Positions 4,894 to 28,358 of a stretch of DNA of 42,275 nucleotides are shown piece by piece. Position 1 is the first letter of the stretch. The number at the start of each line of letters is the position of its first letter. Location of the stretch: positions 1-42,275 of the forward strand of contig JAUZPN010000007.1 of assembly GCA_030705885.1 (NCBI GenBank), read 5' to 3'. A program made the position numbers and the translations under genes. The notes under the pieces were generated by a model. The model was not told the origin of the DNA, searched no databases, and saw nothing but the letters and a program-made list of their open reading frames with translations. The DNA comes from Bacillota bacterium. GTDB taxonomy: Bacteria > Bacillota > Clostridia > Clostridiales > Clostridiaceae.

Positions 4894-7341
4894 ATGAAAA
4901 TATTTTCAAAGAAGTTTTTATCATCAGTGATGGTGCTTATGATTACATTAAATATAGGTATATTAAGTCCATTAGTTGTATTTGCAGATAGTTCTTCAAC
5001 GGATTTTGTAATTGATAGTAATGGAGTTTTGACTGGTTATAATGGAAATCAAGAGGAAGTTATAATTCCAAGTAATGTAAAGAGTATTGCTAATTATGTA
5101 TTTAATTATTGTGATAGTATTAAAGTATTAAAAATTCCTGATAGTGTAAAAAGTATTGGAATGAATGCATTTTATTCATGTCATGGGTTAATCGATGTTA
5201 CAATAGGTAGTGGCGTTTCAGAAATAGGAATTAGTGCTTTTGAAGAGTGTATTAATCTAAAGTATGTAACGCTTTCAGAGGGTTTAAAGCATATAGATTA
5301 TGCAGCTTTTAAAGATTCTCCAATACAAAAGTTAATTTTACCAAGTACTTTATTGTCTATTGGTGACTACGCGTTTTACGCATGTTCAGGATTAACAAAC
5401 ATAACAATACCAAACAGCGTTACAAGTATTGGAAATTATTCATTTTGTTATTGCAGTTCAATAACAAGCATTAAATTATCAAATAGTTTAACTAGTATAG
5501 GGAGTGAAGCTTTTAGTTGCTGTAGAATAACTAGTATAACAATACCTAGTAGTGTAACACAAATAGGAGATAGTCCATTTACATATTGCTGGTATCTTCA
5601 AAACATTAATGTAGATACCAATAATAATAAATATTATAGTAGTAATGGTATATTATATGACAAAAACAGTACAAGCCTTGTTGAATATCCTTCGGGTAAG
5701 AAAGATAAAATTTATATGATACCACTTAATATAACTAATATAGATAATGGTGCTTTTATAAGCTGCAGTTATTTAAATCAAATTATAATAACTGCAAATG
5801 TAACCTCTATAGGCTCTAATTTATTTAAATACTGCACCAACTTAGAATTGGTAAGTGTAGATTCTAATAATAAACAATACATAAGTGATAATGGAATATT
5901 AATAAATAATAATTCACATGAGTTAATCAAATATCCTCCTAAAAATAAAATGACATCTTATGAGGTTAAAAACAATATAAAGATTATAGATGATGAGGCA
6001 TTTGATGGTTGCAGTAATTTAGGGAGCGTAACACTTTCTGATGGATTAACACAAATAAACTCATATGCATTTTCTGACTGCAGCAGTTTGCAGAAAATAA
6101 TTATTCCTGATAGTGTTAAATATGTGGGAGACGGTGCATTTAACAGATGTACCAGTTTGACAAGTGTAACATTATCAAATTACTGTACTGATATAGCAGC
6201 TGGGGAATTTGAAAATTGCACAAAATTAAATGATATTGAAATTCCGTACAATGTAACCTCTATCAAAGATAGTGCATTTTTTAATTGTTCTGCACTAACA
6301 AGTGTAACAATACCAAGTACTGTAACTAATATTGCAAGTCATGAACTTAGTAATTGCAACAATTTAACATTATATGTTATAGAAAATTCTTATGCTAAGG
6401 AATTTGCTATTCAAAACAAAATTTCATATAAGGTAATTGAAGATCCATATTATGGTTTTTTAATAGATGCTAATGGTGTACTTATTAAATATAGTGGAGA
6501 TGGAGGAAATGTAGTTGTTCCAAAAGGGGTAAAGAGTATTGGTAGTTATGCTTTCTCTCCACAAACTAAAATAGACAGTTTGATAATTCCGGAGGGAGTA
6601 ACAAGTATACAAGACGGAGCATTTGAGAATTGCAATAACATATATAGTATAATTATTCCTAAAAGTGTAACATCTATAGGTAAATCTGCATTTTATGGAT
6701 GTATGAGCCTATCAAAAATAATAATTCCTGAAGGAATAACAAATATACAAGAAAGGACATTTGAGTATTGTATTAATTTAAAGAATATAACTATTCCAAA
6801 AAGTGTAACAACCATAGGAAATTCTGCATTTTCTGAATGTACTCAATTAGCAGAAATAACTTTTTCAGGTGGGTTAACAAGTATAGGCGATTTTACATTT
6901 TCTGATTGTATTGGATTGACAAAAATAACACTTCCAGATGGGTTGACGAATATAGGTAATTATTCATTTCTTGGCTGTAGTGAATTAAAACGTGTGGTAA
7001 TACCAAGTAGTGTAATAATCATAGGAAATTCTGCATTTAAGAGTTATGGTTTAGAAATTTGTGGGGTTAAATCATCTTATGCCTACAAATATGCCATGGA
7101 TAATAACATTAAATTTATAGATTTAAATATAAATTATGGAGATGTTAATGGTGATTCAAAAGTTAATGCACTTGATTATATATATATTAAGAGATATATA
7201 AATGGTTCTATTAGAGTATTTCCATATACAGATGGAATGAAAGCATCTGATTTAAATGATGATGGAAAAATTGATCAGAATGATTATATTTTGCTTAGAC
7301 AATTTCTTATTCATAAAATCAATAAATTTCCTGTTCAATAG
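4894..7341 (+). CDS. secreted BspA-type leucine-rich-repeat protein with C-terminal type I dockerin
   Basis: This 815-residue protein starts with a signal peptide (about 1-32; Lys-rich start, hydrophobic core, cleavage near 'VFADS'). It continues with many 22-24-residue LRR_5/BspA repeats of the form 'IPSSVTSIGxxAFxxC'. Two blocks each open with a related cap, near residues 36 ('VIDSNGVLTGY') and 520 ('LIDANGVLIKY'), suggesting an internal duplication. Residues 748-815 form a type I dockerin: GDVNGDSKVN and SDLNDDGKID are its two calcium-binding loops. The ribosome binding site is GAGGTGG. Dockerins bind cohesin modules on scaffoldins, so the protein may be docked on a cell-surface scaffold. 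BspA repeats are found in adhesins and other surface proteins. No cohesin gene is seen in this window. Confidence 0.88.
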   Translation: MKIFSKKFLSSVMVLMITLNIGILSPLVVFADSSSTDFVIDSNGVLTGYNGNQEEVIIPSNVKSIANYVFNYCDSIKVLKIPDSVKSIGMNAFYSCHGLIDVTIGSGVSEIGISAFEECINLKYVTLSEGLKHIDYAAFKDSPIQKLILPSTLLSIGDYAFYACSGLTNITIPNSVTSIGNYSFCYCSSITSIKLSNSLTSIGSEAFSCCRITSITIPSSVTQIGDSPFTYCWYLQNINVDTNNNKYYSSNGILYDKNSTSLVEYPSGKKDKIYMIPLNITNIDNGAFISCSYLNQIIITANVTSIGSNLFKYCTNLELVSVDSNNKQYISDNGILINNNSHELIKYPPKNKMTSYEVKNNIKIIDDEAFDGCSNLGSVTLSDGLTQINSYAFSDCSSLQKIIIPDSVKYVGDGAFNRCTSLTSVTLSNYCTDIAAGEFENCTKLNDIEIPYNVTSIKDSAFFNCSALTSVTIPSTVTNIASHELSNCNNLTLYVIENSYAKEFAIQNKISYKVIEDPYYGFLIDANGVLIKYSGDGGNVVVPKGVKSIGSYAFSPQTKIDSLIIPEGVTSIQDGAFENCNNIYSIIIPKSVTSIGKSAFYGCMSLSKIIIPEGITNIQERTFEYCINLKNITIPKSVTTIGNSAFSECTQLAEITFSGGLTSIGDFTFSDCIGLTKITLPDGLTNIGNYSFLGCSELKRVVIPSSVIIIGNSAFKSYGLEICGVKSSYAYKYAMDNNIKFIDLNINYGDVNGDSKVNALDYIYIKRYINGSIRVFPYTDGMKASDLNDDGKIDQNDYILLRQFLIHKINKFPVQ

Positions 7342-7382
7342 TTTATACAAGTAGTTAATGTAAAAGTTAAATTTAAAAATGT

Positions 7383-7424
7383 AAAAACTAATAGCACTAA
7401 CATTAGTTAGTGCTATTAGTTTTT
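7383..7424. terminator. strong bidirectional intrinsic terminator
   Basis: A 19-bp perfect stem (7383-7401 pairing with 7406-7424) around a 4-nt ATTA loop, flanked by A-run and T-run. It serves the converging leucine-rich-repeat gene and the minus-strand biosynthetic operon, whose TAA stop lies at its edge. Its core is identical to that of the terminator at 2656. Confidence 0.9.
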
Positions 7425-8133
7425 ATATTAATTTTTGAAGTGTTTTATTTATAATATCTGAAACTTCCTTTTTATGTTGATTTATAAAGAAGTGGTCTCC
7501 TTCAAATTCATAGAAACTGCACTCCCTAGATGTACATTTACGCCATAACTGTAAGTATTCATGTGGGAAGTAAGAATCCTGATTCCCATTTAAAATGCTG
7601 ATTCCACAATTTAAATTAACTATTTCCTGATTATAGTCATATTTTTGAACTATGTTATAGTCGCTAAGCAAAATAGGAAAAAGAAAATCTCGTATTTCTT
7701 TATTATTATTAATTTGGATTTTAGTTCCTACAACATCAATAAGTCTTTCAAAAATCTGTTCATCAGAGTAGTCATTACCCATTTTATAAGCATCTTCAAC
7801 ATATGGTGGAAAACGTCCAGAAAAGAAAACATGTATGGGTTCTTTTTTATTGTTTAATCTTATTTTGCGTATTAATTCATAGGCAAGTATTGTTCCCATA
7901 CTATGGCCATAGAAAGCATAAGGACCTTCATCAAGTTCGTGAGAAATTCTACTGTATATATCAATAACAGCTTCATCTATACTTTTATACAAAGGTTCAG
8001 ATATACGTTTTCCATGGCCAGCAAGCTCTATAGGTTTCATTTCAATGATGTTATCAATATATTTTTTCCAGCTTAAATAGGCACTTGCAGAGCCACCTGC
8101 ATAAGGAAAGAAATAAACCTTTATTTTTTCCAA
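7423..8133 (-). CDS. type II thioesterase (GrsT/RifR-like alpha/beta hydrolase)
   Basis: The 236 residues match type II thioesterases of nonribosomal and polyketide pathways. They show the N-terminal FFPYAGGSA oxyanion motif (8-16), the nucleophile elbow GHSMG with Ser78, a likely Asp186 and a GDHFFI motif with His214, so the triad is complete. Such enzymes hydrolyse wrong or stalled acyl groups from carrier proteins, or release the product. The start is TTG at 8133, chosen because the GGAGG (8141-8145) is 7 nt away and no ATG fits. The carrier-protein gene stops 2 nt upstream. It is the last gene of the operon, immediately before the terminator at 7383-7424. Without a condensing enzyme in the operon, it may be the product-release step rather than an editor. 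Confidence 0.88.
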   Translation of the reverse strand: MEKIKVYFFPYAGGSASAYLSWKKYIDNIIEMKPIELAGHGKRISEPLYKSIDEAVIDIYSRISHELDEGPYAFYGHSMGTILAYELIRKIRLNNKKEPIHVFFSGRFPPYVEDAYKMGNDYSDEQIFERLIDVVGTKIQINNNKEIRDFLFPILLSDYNIVQKYDYNQEIVNLNCGISILNGNQDSYFPHEYLQLWRKCTSRECSFYEFEGDHFFINQHKKEVSDIINKTLQKLI

Positions 8134-8135
8134 TA

Positions 8136-8384
8136 TTATTCCTCCGGTCTATGCTCGTTCAGTATGGTAAAAATGTCTCCAATAGTTTCAATAGTAGCAA
8201 CTGCAGACAGAGGTATACTTATTTCATAGGATTTATTCAAAAATAAACCAAGGCTGAATAGTCCTAGTGAATCAAAACCTAAATCTTCATATATGTTTGT
8301 TTCTTTAGATAGTTCATTAATTTCAATTCCTGTATAACTTGATACCTTTTCAACAAAATCAGTCCATTCAATTTTTTTGCTCAT
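8136..8384 (-). CDS. free-standing acyl/peptidyl carrier protein
   Basis: An 82-residue acidic four-helix carrier protein. The phosphopantetheine site is intact: DLGFDSLG with Ser39. A GTG at 8393 also opens the frame but is part of the ribosome binding region; AGGAGG lies 8 nt before the ATG at 8384, so this start is preferred. It overlaps the end of the upstream ligase gene by 17 nt and is followed 2 nt later by the thioesterase. The acyl chain made by one of the two adjacent adenylating enzymes is presumably loaded onto it. It is unlikely to be the housekeeping fatty-acid ACP, because no fatty-acid genes are near. No phosphopantetheinyl transferase gene is in the window, so one must act in trans. 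Confidence 0.87.
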   Translation of the reverse strand: MSKKIEWTDFVEKVSSYTGIEINELSKETNIYEDLGFDSLGLFSLGLFLNKSYEISIPLSAVATIETIGDIFTILNEHRPEE

Positions 8385-9996
8385 GATAAGCACCTCCTAG
8401 TATATTTTTTAGTTCAGCTTCAGCTATTTGTTTAAGTTTTTCAAAATTTACTTTACCTACTCCTGAATTTTTTGGTATATCATCAATAAAAGTTACCTGG
8501 TCTGGTACCATGTAGTTTGCTAGTTGAGACCTGCAGTGTTTCATAATATCCTTTAGTTCTACTTCTGCACCTTCATGTTTTACTATAAATGCCCAAATCA
8601 TTTCTCCATATAGTGGATGAGGGACACCAACAACCGCAGAGCTTTTAACACCATTTAATTTATTTATATAATTTTGAACAACAATAGGAGAAATAGATTT
8701 TCCGCCTCGTTTTATTAGGTATTTTTTTCTTCCTAGCAGTGTAATTGTATTATTCCCTTCATTTCTAACAATATCACCTGTTTTAAACCAGCCATCCTTA
8801 AAGCTATTAAGTGTTTCGGTTTCATTGTTTAAATAACCAGATACAACATTATTTCCTTTAACATATAATTCGCCTATGCTGCCAGGTGGAATGCTGTTAC
8901 CTTCTTCATCTCTTATATCAATTTCATTTCCAATGTTTTCTACAAGTTTAACAATATTAGTTGGAATGCTTTGATTTTCTTCAATATAAGTATTATATGT
9001 CATAATAACATTACATGTTTCAGAAAGACCATAGCCGTTTGAAAATACCTTTATGTTAACAAATTTATCCTTTAATCTTTTTATCAGCGATGGTGAAATA
9101 AAATCCATACCACTTGATATTCTATTTACACTTGTTAAATCATATTCATTTAGGTTAGGCAGCGATAAAATTGCTTCAAAGAATGCAGGTGGAGCAGTTA
9201 TAGTAGTTGGTTTCCACATAGTAATTAGTTCTAGGTACTTAACTGGTGAAACATCTGATGAATAAATTTGACAGTTTCCTGAAAGTAAAGAACCAATTTG
9301 AGTAATCATTCCAGAAGTTGATAGTGGAAATGCTGCTATATTTATACGTTTATATCCCTGCTGCGTCAATTCCTTTTGAGTAGGTCTGCCTAATTCTATA
9401 GCTGCATAAATTTCTGAGGCTATATTTGATTGCGTCATGGCTATACGCTTTGGAATTCCTGTAGTTCCAGAGCTGGAGGCTATAACAAATTCAAAGCTTG
9501 AGCCTTCACCTTCTTTAAGTATAAAATCCAAAATGTTAATGTCTTTATTAACAGTGTTTGAAAAAGTATAATCTGCAAGACTATTTTCTTCTATTGTTAC
9601 AAGCTTAAATTGAGCATTAATTTTTTCAGAAGCTTCTTTAAGAGAAGGAAACTGCTCAGAAGTAGTAATAACACATTTAACATTTATATTTTTAAAGGTA
9701 GTTGCTTTGGTTAAGTCTGGAATCATGTGAAATAATGGTACTGCACATGCACCAAGTCTTGCTATTGAAATAAAGATATAAAACAGTTCAGGACGATTGG
9801 CCATGGTATAGCCTACTTTATCACCTGATTTTATTCCGAGCTTTATTAAATGATAAGTATAATTGTCAACATTTTTTTCAAATTCTTCAGCTGTAATAGT
9901 TTTACCATAAAAATGAAGAATCTCTCTTTTAGGTTCTTGGCTTTTTATAAAATCTTCATATGCCTCATAAACTGTCTTTAAATTACTTTTTATCAT
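8368..9996 (-). CDS. AMP-forming acyl ligase (class I adenylate-forming enzyme), second of two
   Basis: A 542-residue ANL-superfamily enzyme. It has the P-loop ASSSGTTGIPK (about 168-180), a YGLSET motif, a TGD motif (WFKTGD), the hinge GRKKYLIKRGG, and the C-terminal catalytic lysine in NSGVGKVNF. It should activate a carboxylic acid with ATP and pass the acyl group to CoA or, given the next gene, to the carrier protein. The usual His-containing 'P-x-x-H' motif of acyl-CoA ligases is replaced by PLSTSG, so its substrate pocket differs from its neighbour's. The ATG at 9996 follows a GAAGGTG site. It overlaps the upstream ligase by 14 nt and the carrier gene by 17 nt. Acid specificity cannot be read by eye. 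Confidence 0.87.
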   Translation of the reverse strand: MIKSNLKTVYEAYEDFIKSQEPKREILHFYGKTITAEEFEKNVDNYTYHLIKLGIKSGDKVGYTMANRPELFYIFISIARLGACAVPLFHMIPDLTKATTFKNINVKCVITTSEQFPSLKEASEKINAQFKLVTIEENSLADYTFSNTVNKDINILDFILKEGEGSSFEFVIASSSGTTGIPKRIAMTQSNIASEIYAAIELGRPTQKELTQQGYKRINIAAFPLSTSGMITQIGSLLSGNCQIYSSDVSPVKYLELITMWKPTTITAPPAFFEAILSLPNLNEYDLTSVNRISSGMDFISPSLIKRLKDKFVNIKVFSNGYGLSETCNVIMTYNTYIEENQSIPTNIVKLVENIGNEIDIRDEEGNSIPPGSIGELYVKGNNVVSGYLNNETETLNSFKDGWFKTGDIVRNEGNNTITLLGRKKYLIKRGGKSISPIVVQNYINKLNGVKSSAVVGVPHPLYGEMIWAFIVKHEGAEVELKDIMKHCRSQLANYMVPDQVTFIDDIPKNSGVGKVNFEKLKQIAEAELKNILGGAYHEQKN

Positions 9997-11569
9997 TATT
10001 ATTCACCTTCTTATACTGTCTTAAGTATTTATATTGAACTTTTCCAATGTCATTAGGTATTTCATCCATTAAAATTACTTGATCAGGAATTTTGTAAGCT
10101 GCTAATTTTCCACGGCAGAATTTTAAAATCTCTCCTCTTGTTATTTCAAATCCTTTTCTAGGTTTAATGTATGCAACAATCATTTCACCAATAAGTTCAT
10201 CTTTTTCTCCAACAACAGCGATAGACTTAATATAAGGATGAGATAATAGAAAGCCTTCTATTTCTTCAGGATAAACAAGGTTAGCTCCTCTTTTTATAAC
10301 CCTTTTAGCTCTTCCTGAAAATCTTATTCTACCATAAGGTTTTTGAACGGCTAGATCCCCAGTATTAAACCATTTTTCACCTTCTATACTAATAATTCTA
10401 AGGTCTGTTTCTGTTTTGTTTTTGTAATATTCATTAATCAAAGCATCTGTGTGTATAAATATAGTACCTGTTTCGCCTTCTGATACTTTTGCACCTTTCT
10501 TATTTAAAAGCTTTAATTTTGTAAATGAGAGCTCTCTAAATTCATTAACATCAGCATCCTGATCAAATTTTGAGTCCCATACAACCATAGTAGCAGTTTC
10601 AGAAGAGCCTATGACATTTATTAACCTAATGCCTAATTGTTTAAAAAATATCTGTGCGACCTCCATAGGAAGCACTTCTCCAGCAAAATAGCACATTCTT
10701 ACACTAGAAAGATTATAGTTTTTAAAATCAGGAAGAGATAATAGTATTTTTGCGAGTGTTGCTGTCAGCTGAATAATTGTAATTTTTTTCTGTTCAATAG
10801 TTTTAAGAAACTTTATAGGATCAAAAGTGGGCTGATATAGGACTGTACCTCCTTTTAATATGAGCTGCAGCCCCATTCCAAATCCGCCCTGATGATATAA
10901 AGGCATGCCTAACAGCATAATATCATTTTCATTTAATCCAAGATAATCTCCCATATCTTTTTGTGATTTATAAAATCCAAGGTGCGGAACAACAATTATT
11001 TTAGGGTTTCCAGTACTGCCTGAAGTACATGCAAGCATTAATGGATCTTCTTCATTAGGAGTATATATATTATCATAAAATTTATCTTTATTTGATAAAT
11101 TTAAAAAATCATCAAAACTTAAAATATTCTCTAAAGTTTCATTTTGCACAGAAATAACAGTTTTTAGTAAAGGAACTTCATTTCTGATATTTAATAAATT
11201 TTGAAGTATAGCATTTGATCTATAGCAGTTTGCAGTGAAACATATCTCAATATCACCAATTGATATAAGCCTGGACATCTCCCACTGGCCAATCTGCGGA
11301 TCAAATGGTACTGGGTGAGCACCAAGTTTTACAACAGCCCAATAAATTTCATACCATAGTATAGAATTTGGAATTATAAGTGCAATTTTTTGTTTTGGTA
11401 CTGTTCCTAAATTATATAAAGCTGAAGCAATGTTATCAACCATTTCTGTAAATTTTTTATACGTTACTTCTTCTTGATCTATAGATAATAATATTTTATC
11501 AGGATATATGAGTGATTCCTCAAGAATTAACTCATATATGTTTTTACTTGGTATTATATCATTAATCAT
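9983..11569 (-). CDS. AMP-forming acyl ligase (class I adenylate-forming enzyme), first of two
   Basis: A 528-residue ANL enzyme with all core motifs: P-loop CTSGSTGNPK, PLYHQGG, GSSET, WFNTGD, hinge FSGRAKRVIKRG, and the catalytic lysine in NDIGKVQYK. The frame is open further upstream, but an AAGAGG site precedes the ATG at 11569, which also gives a classic 8-nt overlap with the stop of the hydrolase gene. It is similar in plan to, but clearly divergent from, the neighbouring ligase, so the two probably activate different acids. One may load the starter on the carrier and the other a second building block. It could equally form an acyl-CoA. The conserved His suggests an acyl/aryl-CoA-ligase-like pocket rather than an amino-acid A-domain. 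Confidence 0.87.
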   Translation of the reverse strand: MINDIIPSKNIYELILEESLIYPDKILLSIDQEEVTYKKFTEMVDNIASALYNLGTVPKQKIALIIPNSILWYEIYWAVVKLGAHPVPFDPQIGQWEMSRLISIGDIEICFTANCYRSNAILQNLLNIRNEVPLLKTVISVQNETLENILSFDDFLNLSNKDKFYDNIYTPNEEDPLMLACTSGSTGNPKIIVVPHLGFYKSQKDMGDYLGLNENDIMLLGMPLYHQGGFGMGLQLILKGGTVLYQPTFDPIKFLKTIEQKKITIIQLTATLAKILLSLPDFKNYNLSSVRMCYFAGEVLPMEVAQIFFKQLGIRLINVIGSSETATMVVWDSKFDQDADVNEFRELSFTKLKLLNKKGAKVSEGETGTIFIHTDALINEYYKNKTETDLRIISIEGEKWFNTGDLAVQKPYGRIRFSGRAKRVIKRGANLVYPEEIEGFLLSHPYIKSIAVVGEKDELIGEMIVAYIKPRKGFEITRGEILKFCRGKLAAYKIPDQVILMDEIPNDIGKVQYKYLRQYKKVNNNDKK

Positions 11570-12692
11570 GAAAATACCTCTTAACCCAATCAGCAGCAAC
11601 ATTTTTAATCCAATGCAGCTGCTCTCCTACAGGCATAGTGTGGGTTACAAACTGTTCGGTTGAAAATACTGGTTCATCCTCAATTATAATCTTTTCTTTT
11701 GGACCTTCAGCATTTTCAAAAAGATGCATTGCACTTTCAAGTGTCATCCAATTATCATGTTCTCCATGTATAAATAAAAATGGACATTTAATATTACCTT
11801 CTTCAAGTATTTTCATTTCATTTGAAAAACCAGGGTTTTTAACATTACCTGTTTGATAATTAAACCAGTCTCCCTGCTTCATCCATTGAGGGGTAGTTCC
11901 AGGGCTGACCTGTGTAATACGTAGTGCAAAAAATGTTACACATAACGAATAACGAGGATCAATAGATGCAGCTCTGTAAGCATATCCGCCTCCCATGCAT
12001 AAACCATATGTTCCAATCATGTCACTTCTTATATCGTCTCGTGTTTCAAGAAAATCAGGTATTTTTTTGAATGCGGTGTTAAGGTCATCAGCACAACATT
12101 TAATATCTTTTAAGAATAAAGCTTCTCCACTTCCAGGCATGTCAGGAACTAAAACAGAAATACCTCTTTCTACAAGAGGTCTTGCAAGCATATGCATTTC
12201 TTCCTTGCAGCTTCCTAATCCTGCATAAACGATAACGCAGGGTGTTTGTTTTCCAAAACTTTTGTCAGGATGATGTAAATAACAAGGGAGGTATCTATCC
12301 TGATCTAAATGAATGTAAAGCTTCTCAACATTTGAAGAATAGTATTGAGTACTCTTTCTATAACAGCTGGCATATTTAATGTAAATTCGTTTTTTCTCAT
12401 CAATAGTTGGTAAGTTTATTAAAAAAATTGAATAATAACATTGTGTTGCAAAAAAGTAAAGTTCACGTGCTGTAATAAAGTTATTGTTTTTGCTAGCTTC
12501 TTCAGCAATGGATATATACCTTACGGCCTTCTTTTCCCATTCATCACTCCATGCTTGCTGCAATGAATTCATGTTAAAGTAATTCTTTTTTTCAATTGAA
12601 GATAGAACAAACTCAACATCAATAGGATTAACACCATAAATTAAAAGCCTTGTAATAACTGGATTTAATATGTTTCTAATTGACCAATTAAT
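11562..12692 (-). CDS. FrsA/DUF1100-like alpha/beta hydrolase with Cys nucleophile; start appears non-canonical
   Basis: An alpha/beta hydrolase whose nucleophile elbow reads GLCMGG, so Cys replaces Ser, as in dienelactone hydrolases. The likely Asp is in HGEHDNW and the likely His in THTMPVG. The first ATG is at 12572, but the frame stays open and protein-like for 40 more codons, including 'RLLIYGVNPIDVEFVLSSI', which resembles the N-terminal part expected before the W-x3-W-x3-A region of this family. That extension holds no ATG, GTG or TTG and is stopped by TGA at 12708-12710. An AAAGGGG (12702-12708) lies 9 nt from an ATT at 12692, or 6 nt from an ATC at 12695, so one of these is the probable start. 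It opens the biosynthetic operon and overlaps the next gene by 8 nt. It may act in acyl transfer or release. Confidence 0.7.
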   Translation of the reverse strand: MNWSIRNILNPVITRLLIYGVNPIDVEFVLSSIEKKNYFNMNSLQQAWSDEWEKKAVRYISIAEEASKNNNFITARELYFFATQCYYSIFLINLPTIDEKKRIYIKYASCYRKSTQYYSSNVEKLYIHLDQDRYLPCYLHHPDKSFGKQTPCVIVYAGLGSCKEEMHMLARPLVERGISVLVPDMPGSGEALFLKDIKCCADDLNTAFKKIPDFLETRDDIRSDMIGTYGLCMGGGYAYRAASIDPRYSLCVTFFALRITQVSPGTTPQWMKQGDWFNYQTGNVKNPGFSNEMKILEEGNIKCPFLFIHGEHDNWMTLESAMHLFENAEGPKEKIIIEDEPVFSTEQFVTHTMPVGEQLHWIKNVAADWVKRYFHD

Positions 12693-12741
12693 GATAATCG
12701 TCCCCTTTCATATATAAAATAATTAAATAAATTAATATTAA

Positions 12742-14466
12742 TTAAGAAAACCAAGAAATTGATGTTTTAAGTTCAGTTTCACTAAGAGGCTTGCCCCATA
12801 AGAAGCCTTGAATAAAATCACAATTATGTTCGTTTAGATAGTTAAGTTGTTTTTCTGTTTCAACTCCTTCCGCAACGACAGCAATGTTCATTTTATGCAT
12901 AAGATTAATAAGGTCTCCAACTATTTGTTTTCTAGTATTATAATGATTAAGTTCATCAATAAAACTTTTATCAATTTTAAGAATATCAATAGGGAGCTTA
13001 TGTAAATAGCTTAATGATGAATAACCTGTTCCAAAGTCATCTAAAGCTATGTGAATACCAATTTCTTTTAACTTCTCAAAAATCCTGGCTGCATATTCAG
13101 CAGATGATATAAAAACGGATTCAGTAACTTCAAGTTCAAGCTTACAAGGATCAAAGTCAGTTTCGCTCAACACTTTTTTTACCATGTCCACAAATGTTGG
13201 TTTCATAAATTGAATTGTGGATATGTTTACTGAAAGAATAACATCAGCATTTAAATTACTAGAAATTTCTTTAAATTTAATGCAAGCGTTTTTTAAAATC
13301 CATTCACCTAATGAAATAATAATTCCTGTTTCTTCAGCTATTGGTATCATGGTATCAGGATTTATAAGTCCTAATTTTGGAGACTGCCATCTTACAAGTG
13401 CTTCAAAGCCTCTTAACTTTTTTGTATTAGTAGTATATTGAGGCTGAAATACAACATATATTTCATTATAATCTTGTGCACTTCGAAGATTGTTTTCTAA
13501 ATCAATTTTTTTAAGAATCAGTTCCTTTAGTTCTTTATTAAAAAAGTTTATATCATTTTTTCCGCTGCTTTTAACTTTATACATTGCCATATCAGCATTT
13601 TTAAGAAGTTCATCTGAGGTTTGACCATCATCGGGAAAAATTGAAACTCCAAAGCTGGCACTTGTATTTAAAACAAAGTTTCCAATCTGAAAAGGTTGGT
13701 TTAATGAGGTTTTAATAGATTCAATATATTCAATAATTTCATCATTCTTCAAAGGTCTTTGAATGAGAAGCGCAAATTCATCACCACCGATTCTGCCTAT
13801 TAAATCATTTTTATTGATGATTGAGCATATCCTTGATATTACAGCTAATAAAAAATCATCGCCAGTACCATGACCTAAAGAATCATTAATTTTTTTGAAA
13901 TCATCTAAATCAATAAATACTAAAACAAAACGCATATTTTCGAGTTTAGATAGATTTATGATAAACTGCATCTTCCTTAAAATCATAGATCTATTAGGAA
14001 TTCCTGTGAGGGAGTCAAAATATGCAAGAGTATTCAGCTTTTCTTTTTGAGATAAAATTTCAGCAATTTTATCATTAAGCTGATTTATATTATTGTAAAG
14101 AAGAGAAACAATAATAATGGTACAGATTGGTGTTACAAATCCTGGCATAACATCAAGCCTGTTTAAAAATATAATATGTATAATACTAGTAATACATTGA
14201 GTACAATTAAGTAAGACAGCTGTTATGTATCCTTGTTTATTAAATTTTATTTCTAAGTATATTGATATCATTACTTCAACCTGGGAAATTATGGCCGCTA
14301 AACTTCCATTTGTAGTTTTAAACTGAATGAAAAGCAGAATTACATATAATATAACAAAACATAATAATATAATGAACTTTACAGCTAAAGTAATGCTGCT
14401 ATTATATTCTACTATTTTACTTTGTGAAATATTGTTATAATTCTTTTTTAGACCTTTAATATGCAT
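12742..14466 (-). CDS. membrane GGDEF-EAL protein (c-di-GMP turnover)
   Basis: A 574-residue protein with about five N-terminal hydrophobic helices (first about 25-50, last about 105-125), a GGDEF domain (motif at about 227-231, preceded by IGRI) and an EAL domain (FEALVRW, EAL about 355-357; TESVF, DDFGTGYSSL and EGVET all present). Both catalytic motifs are intact, so it may make and break c-di-GMP. The product-inhibition I-site (RxxD) is absent: the matching positions read NKND. The frame extends to an ATG at 14487, but the AAAGGAGG lies just inside it and is 10 nt from the ATG at 14466, so that start is used. It is a paralogue of the next gene upstream. Only 49 nt separate it from the biosynthetic operon, with no terminator visible. 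Confidence 0.88.
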   Translation of the reverse strand: MHIKGLKKNYNNISQSKIVEYNSSITLAVKFIILLCFVILYVILLFIQFKTTNGSLAAIISQVEVMISIYLEIKFNKQGYITAVLLNCTQCITSIIHIIFLNRLDVMPGFVTPICTIIIVSLLYNNINQLNDKIAEILSQKEKLNTLAYFDSLTGIPNRSMILRKMQFIINLSKLENMRFVLVFIDLDDFKKINDSLGHGTGDDFLLAVISRICSIINKNDLIGRIGGDEFALLIQRPLKNDEIIEYIESIKTSLNQPFQIGNFVLNTSASFGVSIFPDDGQTSDELLKNADMAMYKVKSSGKNDINFFNKELKELILKKIDLENNLRSAQDYNEIYVVFQPQYTTNTKKLRGFEALVRWQSPKLGLINPDTMIPIAEETGIIISLGEWILKNACIKFKEISSNLNADVILSVNISTIQFMKPTFVDMVKKVLSETDFDPCKLELEVTESVFISSAEYAARIFEKLKEIGIHIALDDFGTGYSSLSYLHKLPIDILKIDKSFIDELNHYNTRKQIVGDLINLMHKMNIAVVAEGVETEKQLNYLNEHNCDFIQGFLWGKPLSETELKTSISWFS

Positions 14467-14494
14467 ATAGATAGTCCCTCCTTTCATGGATAAA

Positions 14495-14762: not shown

Positions 14763-16505
14763 TTATTGCATGAACCATGAAATTGTTGATTTTAATTCTT
14801 CTTCATTAAGTGGTTTGCCCCACAGAAATCCTTGTATATAATCACAATCATAATTATTAAGGTAGATAAGCTGTTTATCCGTTTCAACACCCTCTGCAAT
14901 GACCAAAATATCCATTTTGTGCATGAGAGATATAATATCTCCAACAATTTGGTTTTCTGAATTTGATTTTAAGATATCATCAATAAAACTTTTATCGAGT
15001 TTAAGTATATCAATAGGAAGCTTTTGTAAATAATTCAGGGAAGAATACCCTGTACCAAAATCATCTAATGCTATATGAATACCCATATCTTTAATTATCC
15101 GAAATACATTTGCTGCATATTCAGAAGAAGTTATGAAAACAGATTCAGTAACCTCAAGCTCAAGATGTCTAGGGTCGAAGTCAGTTTCCTTTAAGACATT
15201 TTTAATCATATCTATGAAATTTGTTTTCATAAATTGAATTGTAGATATGTTTACAGAAAGTATAGCATCAATATTTGAATTGTTCATTATTCTTTTAAAC
15301 ATTAATATAGAATTTCTAAGAATCCATTCTCCAAGAATGACAATAAGTCCAGTTTCTTCTGCTATTGGTATCATAGAATCTGGACGTACTATACCAAGTT
15401 GTGGCGAATTCCATCTAATGAGTGCTTCAAAACCTCTTAATTTCTTTTCTTTAGTACTGTATTGCGGCTGAAATACAATAAACATTTCATCGGTACCAAT
15501 AGCTTTTCGCAGGTTATTTTCCAAATCTATTTTTTTAAGAATGTTATTTTTCATTTCAAAGTTAAAAAAGTTAATATCATTTTTACCCATACTTTTAATT
15601 TTGTACATTGCCATATCTGCATTTTTTAAAAGTTCATCTGATGAACTGCCATCTCTTGGGAAAATAGAAACACCAAAACTTGCACTTGTGTTAAGTGTAA
15701 AGTTTTCTAAATAAAATGGCTGATTTAATGCACTTTGAATAGACTGAAGATACTTTAAAATCTCTTCATCACTTAAAGACCTTTTAATGATAAGTGCAAA
15801 TTCATCTCCGCCGATTCGTCCAATTATGTCTTCACAATCAATAATAGTATTTATTCTGGATATTACAGCTAACAGAAAATTATCACCAACATTATGTCCT
15901 AAAGAATCATTAATTTTTTTAAATTCATCTAAGTCAATAAACACCAAGGCAAACTTAATACCTTTATTTGCTGATAACATAATTAATGTATTTAGTTCTT
16001 TTAAAATTGTTGATCTATTAGGTATGCCTGTAAGTGGATCAAAATAAGCAAGATCTTTCAATTTTTCCCTTTGTGATAAAGCTTCACCAATTTTTTCATT
16101 TAATTTAGCTAAATTTTTATTAAGAAGATTAATAATAACAATAGTAAGTAATGAAATTAAAATTCCTGGAATGGCCTGAAATCTTTTAAAAAATAAAATT
16201 AATATAATAACTTCAACTATGTGAAATATAGCTAATGAAATAGAAACTATATATCCTTTTGTTTTTAATTCGATAGCTATGAAAATAGAGGATATAACCT
16301 GAAACTGTGATATTATACCTGCAATACTATTTCCTGATTTGTATTGAAGGAAGCAAGAAAATATATATAATATTACAAAAATTAACAGCCCGATATTTAT
16401 AAGCAGATTATTATGAACTGTATCATTTTTCCTATTAAGTATGTTGTTTGATGATTCATAACTGTTTGTTTTATTATCATTTTCTTTATGTATTTTAAGG
16501 TTCAT
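14763..16505 (-). CDS. membrane GGDEF-EAL protein (c-di-GMP turnover), paralogue
   Basis: A 580-residue protein with the same plan as the gene after it: N-terminal membrane helices (about 33-55 and 60-130), a GGDEF domain (motif about 232-236) and an EAL domain (about 360-362, FEALIRW, with TESVF, DDFGTGYSSL and EGVET). Catalytic motifs are intact. The I-site position reads DCED, so it too lacks the inhibitory RxxD. The ATG at 16505 follows a GAGGG site. The two proteins align over almost their full length, with long identical stretches in GGDEF and EAL, so they arose by tandem duplication. The membrane sensor parts and N-terminal tails differ most, suggesting the copies respond to different signals or dimerise with each other. 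Confidence 0.88.
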   Translation of the reverse strand: MNLKIHKENDNKTNSYESSNNILNRKNDTVHNNLLINIGLLIFVILYIFSCFLQYKSGNSIAGIISQFQVISSIFIAIELKTKGYIVSISLAIFHIVEVIILILFFKRFQAIPGILISLLTIVIINLLNKNLAKLNEKIGEALSQREKLKDLAYFDPLTGIPNRSTILKELNTLIMLSANKGIKFALVFIDLDEFKKINDSLGHNVGDNFLLAVISRINTIIDCEDIIGRIGGDEFALIIKRSLSDEEILKYLQSIQSALNQPFYLENFTLNTSASFGVSIFPRDGSSSDELLKNADMAMYKIKSMGKNDINFFNFEMKNNILKKIDLENNLRKAIGTDEMFIVFQPQYSTKEKKLRGFEALIRWNSPQLGIVRPDSMIPIAEETGLIVILGEWILRNSILMFKRIMNNSNIDAILSVNISTIQFMKTNFIDMIKNVLKETDFDPRHLELEVTESVFITSSEYAANVFRIIKDMGIHIALDDFGTGYSSLNYLQKLPIDILKLDKSFIDDILKSNSENQIVGDIISLMHKMDILVIAEGVETDKQLIYLNNYDCDYIQGFLWGKPLNEEELKSTISWFMQ

Positions 16506-24671: not shown

Positions 24672-25688
24672 ATGAGTAAGATTATGGGTGAAAGACTATC
24701 AAACATTCCTTGGCAGGATAAGCCGAAAAATATTATTGCACCAATATGGCGTCATTCAGGAAATCCAATAATCGGTCGTAATCCAGTAAAAGGTGTTGCA
24801 CGTATATTTAATAGTGCAGTTGTACCATACGAAGGAGCATTTATTGGAGTATTTAGAGGCGAGACTATAAACGGAAGGCCACATATATACTTAGGAAAAA
24901 GTTCCGATGGTATCAATTGGGAATTTAATGAGGAAAAAATTAAATTTGTAGATGAGGAGGGAAAGCCTTACCAGCCGCTTTATGCTTATGATCCAAGATT
25001 AGTAAAAGTAGAAGATGCATACTACATTATTTGGTGCGGAGATTTTGATGGAGCTTCTATAGGTCTTGCGAGAACTAGAGATTTTAAGACATTTACACGT
25101 TTAGAGAATCCCTTCTTACCATTTAATAGAAATGGAGTTTTGTTTCCTAGAAAAATAAATAATAAATATGTTATGTTATCTAGACCAAGTGACAGCGGAC
25201 ATACACCTTTTGGCGATATTTTATTAAGTCAAAGTCCTGATTTAAAATACTGGGGAGAACATAGAATAGTAATGCAAAAAGGCGGTCAAGGATGGTGGCA
25301 GGCTGTTAAAATTGGATGTGGTCCTTCTCCTATAGAATTAGATGAAGGATGGCTGATGTTCTACCATGGAGTTACAGGAACATGTAATGGATTTGTTTAC
25401 TCTATGAGTGCAGCTATATTAGACAAAGATAATCCTGCAAAAGTTTTATATCGTGCTGGAAGCCATATGCTTACACCAGAAGAATGGTATGAAGAAAGAG
25501 GATTTGTACCAAATGTAGTATTTCCATGTGCAGCATTATGTGATGCACAAACAGGTAGAATTGCAATTTATTATGGAGCTGCAGATACTTATGTTAGTGT
25601 AGCCTATACTACATTAGAAGAAACTGTTAATTTCATTAAGGAACATAATGAGCTTGTTGGTTTAGATGGAACAGACGGCAGAATGTAA
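24672..25688 (+). CDS. GH130 family beta-mannoside phosphorylase (mannooligosaccharide type)
   Basis: A 338-residue five-bladed-propeller enzyme of glycoside hydrolase family 130. Signatures include NPVKGVARIFNSAVVPYEG (about 37-55), YAYDPRLVKVED with the likely catalytic Asp107, and 'CGPSPIELDEGWLMFYHG' for substrate and phosphate binding. It should split a terminal beta-mannose from oligosaccharides with phosphate, giving mannose 1-phosphate. By length and form it is closest to the mannooligosaccharide or mannobiose phosphorylase subgroups; exact linkage is uncertain. AGGAG is 14 nt before the ATG, a long spacing, and a 5-codon GTG frame overlaps the start. It is the first gene of the operon under the LacI-type regulator. 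Confidence 0.88.
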   Translation: MSKIMGERLSNIPWQDKPKNIIAPIWRHSGNPIIGRNPVKGVARIFNSAVVPYEGAFIGVFRGETINGRPHIYLGKSSDGINWEFNEEKIKFVDEEGKPYQPLYAYDPRLVKVEDAYYIIWCGDFDGASIGLARTRDFKTFTRLENPFLPFNRNGVLFPRKINNKYVMLSRPSDSGHTPFGDILLSQSPDLKYWGEHRIVMQKGGQGWWQAVKIGCGPSPIELDEGWLMFYHGVTGTCNGFVYSMSAAILDKDNPAKVLYRAGSHMLTPEEWYEERGFVPNVVFPCAALCDAQTGRIAIYYGAADTYVSVAYTTLEETVNFIKEHNELVGLDGTDGRM

Positions 25689-25703
25689 GAGGTAAACACA
25701 GAT

Positions 25704-26900
25704 ATGAAAAGTTTTAATGAACTGGTTAAACAGGAACTAAATAAATACGAAGAACTTATTACAAAAAAAAATGAAATAGATGATAAATATAATGGGATTT
25801 ATGATAGGTATAAAAATCCTGTCTTAACTAGAGAACATATTCCATTATATTGGAGGTATGATTTCAATCCAAAAACTAACCCATATTTCTTAGAACGTTT
25901 AGGGATTAATGCGGTTATGAATTCAGGAGCTATTGAACTAAATGGTAAGTTTTATTTAGTAGCACGTATAGAGGGCAATGATCGAAAATCATTTTTTGCT
26001 GTAGCAGAAAGTGATAATGGAATTGATAACTTTAGATTTTGGGATTATCCTGTGATTATTCCTGATACTTGTCCAGAAGAAACTAATGTATATGATATGA
26101 GAATTACAAAACATGAAGATGGTTATATTTATGGAGTGTTTTGTTCTGAAAGCAAGGATACTGATTCATCAGATTTGTCTGCAGCCATTGCACAAGCTGG
26201 TATCGTAAGAACTAAGGACTTAAGAATTTGGAGAAGACTTCCTAATTTAAAAACAAAATCACCTCAACAGAGAAATGTAGTACTTCATCCTGAATTTGTT
26301 AACGGAAAGTATGCTTTTTATACTAGACCACAGGATGATTTCATTCAAACTGGATCTGGAGGAGGAATATGTTTTGGCTTATGTGATGATATAAATAACC
26401 CTGTTATAACAACTGATGAAGTTGTTATAAGTCCAAGACAATATCACACTATTACTGAGATTAAAAATGGGGCAGGTGCAGTTCCTATAAAAACTTCAAA
26501 GGGCTGGATTCACATTGCACATGGCGTTAGGAATACTGCAGCAGGTCTTCGTTATGTTTTATATGTTTTTGCAACAGATCTAAATGATCCATCAAAACTT
26601 ATAGCAAGTCCATCAGGAGCGTTTATTGTGCCTCTTGGACATGAAAGATTTGGAGATGTTTCGAATGTTGTGTTTACGAATGGTGTTATAGCAAGAGAAA
26701 ATGGTGATGTTTTCATATATTATGCATCTTCAGATACAAGAATGCATGTTGCAGTAACTAATATTGATAAATTAATAGATTATACATTTAATACACCTTC
26801 AGATCAGCTGCGTTCTGCAGATTGTGTTAAGCAGAGATGTGAGCTTATAAGCATGAATTTTGAATATGCTAAAAGTGCTTCAGCAAAAATAGACTTTTAA
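25704..26900 (+). CDS. GH130 family phosphorylase, mannosylglucose phosphorylase type
   Basis: A 398-residue GH130 protein, longer than its neighbour and with the N-terminal helical extension (about 1-40) typical of 4-O-beta-D-mannosyl-D-glucose phosphorylases. The likely catalytic Asp131 is in [33 protein letters not shown] and [19 protein letters not shown] are family motifs. It would convert mannosyl-glucose plus phosphate to mannose 1-phosphate and glucose. It lies 15 nt after the first GH130 gene with an AGAGGT site. In known mannan pathways these two phosphorylase types work with a cellobiose 2-epimerase, which is not found here. It is therefore probably specialised on glucomannan fragments. 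Confidence 0.9.
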
Positions 26901-26923
26901 ACAAAGATAAAACAAATTAATTT

Positions 26924-26953
26924 GAACTTTGTAATTAAGGAAAGTATAGTATA
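26924..26953. repeat. possible fused remnant of the palindromic element
   Basis: GAACTTTGTAATTAAGGAAA followed by GTATAGTA joins a core end (GAACTTTG) to an outer flank (GGAAAGTATAG) found in full copies. It lies in the 99-nt gap before the GH1 gene and is too short to be sure. Confidence 0.25.
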
Positions 26954-26999
26954 AATGTTACACAGAAAGTACAAAATTTAAATTATAGGAGATGATAAA

Positions 27000-28358
27000 A
27001 TGAGTTTTCCAAAAGATTTTGTCTGGGGAGCTGCGACTGCTTCATATCAAGTAGAAGGAGCATTAAACGAAGGTGGAAGAGGACTTTCAATATGGGATGA
27101 TTTTTGCAATACACCAGGAAAAATATTTTCTAATCAAAATGCAGAAGAAGCCTGTGACCATTTTCACAAATATAATGAAGATGTTAAATTGATGAAAGAC
27201 CTAGAATTGCAAGCATATAGATTTTCTATAGCATGGCCAAGAATATTACCAAATGGTTTTGGTGAAATAAATGAAGAGGGCTTAGATTTTTATGATAAAT
27301 TAATTAATGAACTTTTAGAAAAAGGAATAACACCATATATAACGTTATTTCACTGGGATTTACCTTTCGAACTGCATAAACTTGGCGGATGGATGAATCC
27401 AGAAAGTCCAAAATGGTTTGCAAACTATGCAAAAATAGTTGCTCAAAGATTTGGGGATAGAGTAAAGAACTTTATTACATTTAATGAACCTCAGTGTTTT
27501 ATAGGGCTTGGTTATGTAACTGGTGAGCATGCACCAGGGATTTGTATGTCAAGAAAATGCACTCTGCAAATGGCTCATAATGTTATGCTGGCACATGGTT
27601 TAGCAGTTCAAGCAATTAGAAGTGTTGTAAAAGATGCTAAAATAGGATATGCGCCAACTGGAGGGGGTACTTATCCATTATCAAATTCTACAGAAGACAT
27701 TGAAGCAGCAAGAGAAGCTTATTTTCAATTAATGCCAAATCCAAAAAATTATTTATGGACAGTGCCATGGTGGAGTGATCCTGTTATGTTAGGACATTAT
27801 CCAGAGGAAGGTGTTAAGCTTTATGAAAAAGATATGCCTAAAATAGGGCAGGATGATATGAAAATAATATCACAGCCTTTAGATTATTACGGACAAAATA
27901 TATATAATGGTATTGGTATTTCAGCAGGTAAGGATGGATTTGAATGGGAAATACGTAAGGAAGGCTATACTAAAACGGCTTGTAACTGGCCTGTAACGCC
28001 ACAGTGTATTTACTGGAGTATTAAATTCTTATATGAAAGATATAAAAAGCCAATTATTATTACGGAAAATGGTATGTCTGCTCATGACTGTATTTCCATA
28101 GATGGAAAAGTTCATGATCCAAATAGAATTGATTATATGTATCGATATATTGCAGCTATGAAAAAAGCGGTAGAAGATGGTGTTGATATTAAAGCATATT
28201 TTGCTTGGTCATTAATGGATAACTTTGAATGGTCAAATGGATATAATGAGCGTTTTGGTTTAACATATGTAGACTATGAAACTCAGCAGAGAATTATTAA
28301 GGATTCAGGTTATTGGTTTAAAGATGTAATAAAATCTAATGGAGAAAATATTAAATAG
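27000..28358 (+). CDS. GH1 beta-glucosidase
   Basis: A 452-residue family 1 glycosidase, cytoplasmic (no signal peptide). It begins with the canonical FPKDFVWGAATASYQVEGA. The acid/base Glu163 is in TFNEPQ, the nucleophile Glu356 in IITENG, and the sugar-binding DNFEWSNGYNERFG is near the C-terminus. The motifs fit a hydrolase of unphosphorylated beta-glucosides rather than a 6-phospho-enzyme. It may also act on mannosides. AGGAG precedes the ATG. It follows the GH130 pair by 99 nt, so it is probably cotranscribed and would trim glucose from glucomannan fragments or use cellobiose. The esterase gene begins 12 nt after its stop. Confidence 0.94.
   Translation: MSFPKDFVWGAATASYQVEGALNEGGRGLSIWDDFCNTPGKIFSNQNAEEACDHFHKYNEDVKLMKDLELQAYRFSIAWPRILPNGFGEINEEGLDFYDKLINELLEKGITPYITLFHWDLPFELHKLGGWMNPESPKWFANYAKIVAQRFGDRVKNFITFNEPQCFIGLGYVTGEHAPGICMSRKCTLQMAHNVMLAHGLAVQAIRSVVKDAKIGYAPTGGGTYPLSNSTEDIEAAREAYFQLMPNPKNYLWTVPWWSDPVMLGHYPEEGVKLYEKDMPKIGQDDMKIISQPLDYYGQNIYNGIGISAGKDGFEWEIRKEGYTKTACNWPVTPQCIYWSIKFLYERYKKPIIITENGMSAHDCISIDGKVHDPNRIDYMYRYIAAMKKAVEDGVDIKAYFAWSLMDNFEWSNGYNERFGLTYVDYETQQRIIKDSGYWFKDVIKSNGENIK

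Follow-up and report, generated by a model that had tools for sequence, protein, structure and literature searches.

The stretch of DNA analyzed here (the window) comprises 42,275 nucleotides (nt) from a Bacillota bacterium of the family Clostridiaceae (GenBank assembly GCA_030705885.1, contig JAUZPN010000007.1) and carries, at 7423-12692 on the minus strand, an operon of five genes, hereafter the cassette, which encode an α/β-hydrolase with a Cys nucleophile, two AMP-forming ligases (A and B), a free-standing acyl carrier protein (ACP) and a type II (editing) thioesterase (TE). The hydrolase gene (11562-12692) yields 376 residues from an ATT codon at 12692 or 336 from an ATG at 12572, and it overlaps the gene of ligase A (9983-11602), which probably starts at 11569 (MINDIIP) or alternatively at the ATG at 11602, the hydrolase stop being at 11562. 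Ligase B (8368-9996), with ~25% identity to the ligase A family, overlaps ligase A by 14 nt; its stop at 8368 lies inside the ACP gene (8136-8393; probable start the ATG at 8384, otherwise 8393), and the TE gene (7423-8133, TTG start, GHSMG motif) follows after a gap of 2 nt. The Pfam assignments of these proteins (a DLH/FrsA-like hydrolase, two ligases with AMP-binding and AMP-binding_C, a PP-binding carrier and Thioesterase) and the coordinates agree with the five-gene operon and gene order given in a preliminary description of this DNA. The strong terminator mentioned there is a minus-strand hairpin at 7382-7425 (20-bp stem, 4-nt loop, -26.7 kcal/mol, z = -8.6) that overlaps the TE stop codon. 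Since the hairpin is placed between convergent genes and has a better T-tract on the plus strand, it may serve both the operon and the convergent gene at 4894-7341.

The preliminary description had proposed that a lack of joint conservation would refute its reading of the set; the genes were found to recur together in 18 further loci from five phyla. With the hydrolase as query, 84,980 species genomes yielded ten orthologous loci, with best segments at 42-56% identity and with an eleventh, short match left uncounted. The hosts are Pseudobacteroides cellulosolvens and Cellulosilyticum ruminicola, an uncultured Ruminococcus, metagenome-assembled genomes (MAGs) of Oscillospiraceae, Deltaproteobacteria (Myxococcota), Anaerolineae and Chitinispirillaceae, two Spirochaetales and one organism named only as a bacterium. 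Searches of sampled groups contributed eight more: six from the family of the Ruminococcus, where 7 of 198 genomes carry the hydrolase if the starting genome is counted, and one each from the phylum of the Chitinispirillaceae MAG and from the Pseudobacteroides family (genome G1348). Together with that of the window this gives 19 hydrolase copies, spread over Bacillota, Chloroflexota, Myxococcota, Spirochaetota and Fibrobacterota. No hydrolase of comparable score was found beyond the window's own genome in its sampled family (147 genomes), class (391) or phylum (398), and a search of viral contigs found no relatives. The distribution is sparse and mobile. The hydrolase tree places the window in a group (support 83/88) with the Anaerolineae and Deltaproteobacteria MAGs and Pseudobacteroides, apart from the Ruminococcus-type Bacillota (100/99); this grouping across phyla points to horizontal transfer, by which the block apparently spread.

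Of the 19 loci, 18 have the ACP, the remaining one being interrupted by a contig end, and ligase A lies in the same gene run as the hydrolase in 16 (in L067 it begins at the contig end, and a hydrolase-ligase fusion suspected there from the open reading frame (ORF) call was dismissed, as a stop separates the two genes). Ligase B and the TE are found in 12 and 13 loci, respectively. Ligase A is absent from the hydrolase locus in Pseudobacteroides and in G1348. The Pseudobacteroides copy (63% identity to that of the window) is encoded 0.8 Mb from the remainder and adjoins a MIF-like ORF, as the hydrolase does elsewhere, which indicates that the parts are tied together beyond one locus. Apart from a GGDEF/EAL similarity in one relative, the genes flanking the window's cassette are not common to the relatives, so the borders of the cassette are sharp. 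The distance matrices of the hydrolase, the two ligases and the ACP are correlated with one another (r = 0.73-0.91), and none of 2000 label permutations reached such a value for any pair. This indicates that the set travels together, although shared ancestry of the host genomes could contribute. By these measures the ACP is dedicated to the set and inherited together with it.

The start of the hydrolase deserves comment. The 40 codons ahead of the ATG at 12572, which a mechanical call selects, encode INWSIRNILNPVITRLLIYGVNPIDVEFVLSSIEKKNYFN; 17 of the 18 copies in the alignment (window included) conserve these residues. The codon aligned to the start is mostly ATG in the orthologues and ATT in the window (12690-12692), 8 nt after a ribosome-binding site GGGGA (12701-12705, minus strand). 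Independent support for the ATT comes from structure: the match of the hydrolase model to AntI rises from Z = 32.1 to Z = 37.4 when the 40 residues are added. The upper limit of 12692 given in the preliminary description is therefore preferable to 12572 on account of the conserved residues, even though no ATG stands there; the ATT could be a genuine rare start codon or an error in the sequence. Residue numbers below refer to the 376-residue form unless stated.

The hydrolase scores above the cut-off for both the FrsA-like and the DLH families of Pfam, and profile search and structure agree on its nearest solved proteins, namely 2,6-dihydroxy-pseudo-oxynicotine (DHPON) hydrolase, AntI, FrsA and Ayg1/Wdyg1. 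The full-length model (pLDDT, the predicted local distance difference test, 89.0) matches DHPON hydrolase with Z = 37.8 and AntI almost as well, with 351 residues aligned at a root-mean-square deviation of 2.8 and with both the N-terminal helical domain and the α/β-hydrolase domain covered. The Ser nucleophile in GXSXG that marks the FrsA/AntI family is replaced in a GLCMGG motif by Cys232 (Cys192 in the short form), which aligns with the AntI nucleophile Ser245 and is invariant as the Cys of GLCMGGG in all 19 copies, in line with the Cys nucleophile of the preliminary description. The enzyme shares the fold and layout of the FrsA/AntI family and is at most a Cys variant of it. We propose Cys232-Asp313-His351 (Cys192-Asp273-His311 in the short form) as the catalytic triad. 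Asp313 aligns with the triad Asp of AntI, and the AntI pocket turn GLDS (residues 173-176) aligns with an invariant G-x-G-S of the hydrolase. His351, invariant and located before the last helix, is likely the catalytic His; in the model its own loop (345-354) has a pLDDT below 50. If the N-terminal alignment (model residue 3 to AntI residue 12) runs without gaps, Arg15, which is almost invariant among the copies, would lie near AntI Arg24, which stacks on the aromatic ligand. The roles of the AntI residues are taken from PMC11165489, according to which AntI acts on an ACP-bound intermediate, combining retro-Claisen trimming with Dieckmann closure. The preliminary description overlooked this C-C chemistry of the closest structural relatives.

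In both ligases the adenylation core is retained, as is the C-terminal Lys of a GK motif. The nearest solved stand-alone relatives of ligase A are aryl-acid ligases (salicylate-AMP and 2,3-dihydroxybenzoate-AMP ligases), and those of ligase B are oxalyl-CoA synthetase, fatty-acyl/feruloyl-CoA synthetase and 4-coumarate-CoA ligases, where CoA is coenzyme A. The top NCBIfam scores of both belong to acyl-CoA ligase models, and none of the matches shown reaches the curated cut-off. The pocket stretch of ligase A (YHQGGFGMG and the GSSET region) shows essentially no variation across 17 copies, which makes a common substrate in all carriers of the cassette probable. The substrate prediction from ligase pockets that had been suggested earlier thus yields a conserved pocket with aryl-acid relatives, which is insufficient to name the substrate. 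The phosphopantetheine Ser of the ACP is intact, with DSLG invariant in 11 aligned copies, as is an FS motif. The TE is a stand-alone PF00975 protein (E = 1.1e-32) with a GXSXG motif, as expected of a type II thioesterase, and among its nearest solved relatives are surfactin TE, RifR and YbtT, which act as stand-alone thioesterases in thiotemplated systems.

Several relatives carry additional genes. In eight loci of Ruminococcus type (L029, L031 and L061-L066) the cassette lies directly behind, and in the same gene run as, a ketosynthase (KS) operon that encodes an acyltransferase (AT), a second carrier (ACP2), ECH1, a 4HBT thioesterase, a weakly conserved third ORF (probably a degenerate ECH-like protein; it has no Pfam match), ECH2, a 3-hydroxyacyl dehydrogenase and a FabF-like ketosynthase. 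The KS Cys/His/His motifs and the DSL motif of ACP2 are intact in all eight, and such an operon, having no enoyl reductase, would make unsaturated chains. Ligase B is missing from six of these loci. The absence of a condensing enzyme and the presence of two acyl ligases, both noted earlier, hence do not extend to the family as a whole, the former being true of the window and the short form of the cassette alone. Ten operons include a gene for a MIF-family protein, and in every full-length copy examined Pro comes right after Met; an eleventh, shortened copy is that beside the separate ligase A of Pseudobacteroides. In the Anaerolineae locus (L028) an Sfp-type phosphopantetheinyl transferase (PPTase) and a divergent TE stand beside the set. 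The window's own genome, which is 78% complete, does contain a MIF gene (C1:55595), rejected as a cassette member as it has neither cassette-type similarity nor context, and a FabF (C171) to which no link from the cassette was shown. The same holds for a modular polyketide synthase (PKS) of 2859 residues with three KS domains on another contig (C182; L097:910-9489). As a separate observation, a UvrA-like protein is encoded directly downstream of one Ruminococcus-type cluster version (L029:15618-17885), in this locus only; UvrA-like genes can give self-resistance beside DNA-damaging products.

Among known systems, AntI of Photorhabdus, from an anthraquinone type II PKS, resembles the hydrolase in its full-length fold with the N-terminal helical domain, the position of the nucleophile elbow, the GLDS/GxGS turn and the triad Asp, and both sit beside an ACP. 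They differ in the nucleophile (Ser in AntI, Cys here), in overall sequence (~21% identity) and in the loop ahead of the presumed catalytic His, which is longer here; moreover, the neighbors of AntI form a type II PKS whereas those of the hydrolase are ligases, with the KS operon in the Ruminococcus-type relatives. AbyA5, which acts at the tetronate elimination step of the abyssomicin pathway, has a related fold with a clearly lower match than AntI (Z = 26.3-28.1). In closthioamide biosynthesis of the anaerobe Ruminiclostridium cellulolyticum, a CoA-synthetase-like ligase is predicted to load the carrier, and the parts are joined by a stand-alone transferase (PMC6772006). The loading of free-standing carriers by such a ligase, independent of nonribosomal peptide synthetases, would be common to both systems, but the CtaG-type transferase of closthioamide was not found with the cassette, and no Pfam match to ATP-grasp, AANH thioamide synthetase or transglutaminase was obtained in the scanned window genes or the scanned immediate neighbors in relatives.

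The celluxanthene (cex) cluster of cellulolytic anaerobes has a similar inventory of AMP ligase, ACP and α/β-hydrolase (PMC12144888), together with a PPTase. It differs in having the iterative PKS CexF and two KASIII enzymes, none of which is in the window, and its ligase and hydrolase come from other families than those of the cassette. We located cex-type clusters (PPTase, giant PKS, hydrolase, ligase, two KASIII-type genes and ACP) in the two genomes, Pseudobacteroides (L093, L094) and G1348 (L096), that also carry the cassette elsewhere. The CexD-type ligase shows 23-27% identity to ligases A and B, whereas BLAST finds no match between the CexE-type hydrolase and that of the cassette, and Pfam assigns the former to neither FrsA nor DLH. 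Judged by these comparisons, the cex cluster and the cassette coexist and are distinct, and no adjacent known pathway was found to explain the set. The two cex-like clusters of Pseudobacteroides cellulosolvens have ligases that are 70% identical, and the second may make another congener. No description of the gene set appeared in the literature searched, which is weak evidence as most subscription journals fall outside its coverage. The cassette is genuine and conserved, probably thiotemplated and, as had been suggested earlier, apparently undescribed. The core of the preliminary description stands.

We favor, at a probability of roughly one half, a thiotemplated small-molecule pathway in which the Cys-containing AntI-like enzyme unloads an acyl group from the ACP and goes on to condense, trim or release it. 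This reading draws on the recurrence of the core, with flanks that differ, at 18 other loci in five phyla, on the correlated distances, on the MIF-like ORF next to the distant ligase A of Pseudobacteroides, on the PPTase and TE found in L028 and the intact KS operon in eight loci, on the shared pocket turn, and on the best matches of the hydrolase model (DHPON hydrolase, AntI, FrsA and Ayg1) together with the chemistry of AntI on an ACP-bound intermediate. Gene content, conservation, co-inheritance, the fold family and the replacement of Ser by Cys are shown here; we infer every reaction step and the product. Ligase A would adenylate one carboxylic acid and attach it to the ACP. The other acyl partner would be an acid taken ready-made and activated by ligase B or, in the Ruminococcus-type relatives, an unsaturated chain from the KS/AT/ACP2/dehydrogenase/hydratase operon. 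The acyl group would then pass from the ACP thioester onto Cys232 for condensation, trimming or offloading; by analogy with AntI, acyl transfer or C-C bond formation is plausible for a Cys version that stands beside an ACP and ligases. In many relatives the MIF-type tautomerase with its N-terminal Pro would handle a keto-enol intermediate, and the type II thioesterase would clear stalled carriers. Such a pathway would be dedicated and spread horizontally among anaerobes. Weighing against it are the poor modeling of the loop with the catalytic His, the replacement of the triad Asp by Glu in one homologue (L035), the absence of both the KS operon and a cassette-type MIF gene from the window, and the possibility that both ligases could instead yield CoA thioesters.

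That the Cys enzyme, in place of a KS or condensation domain, links two ligase-activated acids through a C-C or C-O bond on one ACP, with the KS operon supplying one half in Ruminococcus-type bacteria, and so defines a new class of thiotemplated pathway, is a tentative proposal that we consider possible and rather doubtful. It might, on the other hand, only trim, acting as a retro-Claisen or thioester hydrolase that turns acyl-ACP into a free acid, with any coupling taking place elsewhere. DHPON hydrolase and Ayg1/Wdyg1, among its nearest solved relatives, are indeed C-C hydrolases (PMC11165489), but the Ser-to-Cys replacement is invariant and 13 of the 19 loci already have a separate TE for hydrolysis. 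Cys nucleophiles in thioesterase-type enzymes, moreover, tend toward acyl transfer over hydrolysis, and we regard trimming alone as unlikely.

Transfer of the ACP-bound acyl group to an amine or alcohol would follow the closthioamide precedent of a ligase predicted to load the carrier and a stand-alone transferase (PMC6772006). The nearby genes scanned gave no match to the ATP-grasp, AANH or transglutaminase families, and the MIF-type tautomerase and KS operon of the relatives seem to fit keto-enol and C-C chemistry better; such amide or ester coupling is quite unlikely. A catabolic role, in which ordinary aromatic or fatty acyl-CoA ligases work with an ester hydrolase and the ACP is incidental, would suit the best scores of both ligases against acyl-CoA ligase models and the aryl-acid relatives of ligase A. 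These scores stay below the cut-off in all NCBIfam matches shown, however, the ACP is present in every locus uncut by a contig end with distances that track those of the ligases, and a type II TE and a PPTase belong to thiotemplated pathways, which makes catabolism improbable. That the cassette is a piece of the pathway to celluxanthene or flavoaffinin (yellow affinity substance) we can practically set aside: despite the similar inventory (PMC12144888) and the joint occurrence in Pseudobacteroides cellulosolvens and its relative G1348, the cex clusters occupy other sites, their ligase is too distant and their hydrolase is unmatched.

The surroundings of the operon in the window provide some information on its host. 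The convergent gene at 4894-7341 encodes a BspA-type leucine-rich-repeat surface protein with a terminal type I dockerin, which suggests a host of the cellulosome type, and the bacterium is probably cellulose-degrading. Immediately upstream, the strand of the operon carries tandem genes for two similar GGDEF-EAL proteins (12742-14487 and 14763-16505). A LacI-type regulator followed by two GH130-type phosphorylases and a GH1 gene (24672-28358) is probably a locus for mannan-type sugar utilization. The statement that no transporter is near needs qualification, as a MacB/FtsX-type permease lies ~5 kb past the terminator on the opposite strand; nothing ties it to the operon.

Few natural products are known from strict anaerobes, and the cassette described here is small, occurs across phyla and is easy to recognize by the hydrolase motifs GLCMGGGYA and HxMPxGEQxHW. 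Whatever the Cys enzyme does, the Ruminococcus-type clusters constitute defined candidate metabolite genes, and if the enzyme does form bonds, it would represent a compact joining catalyst that works without a ketosynthase.

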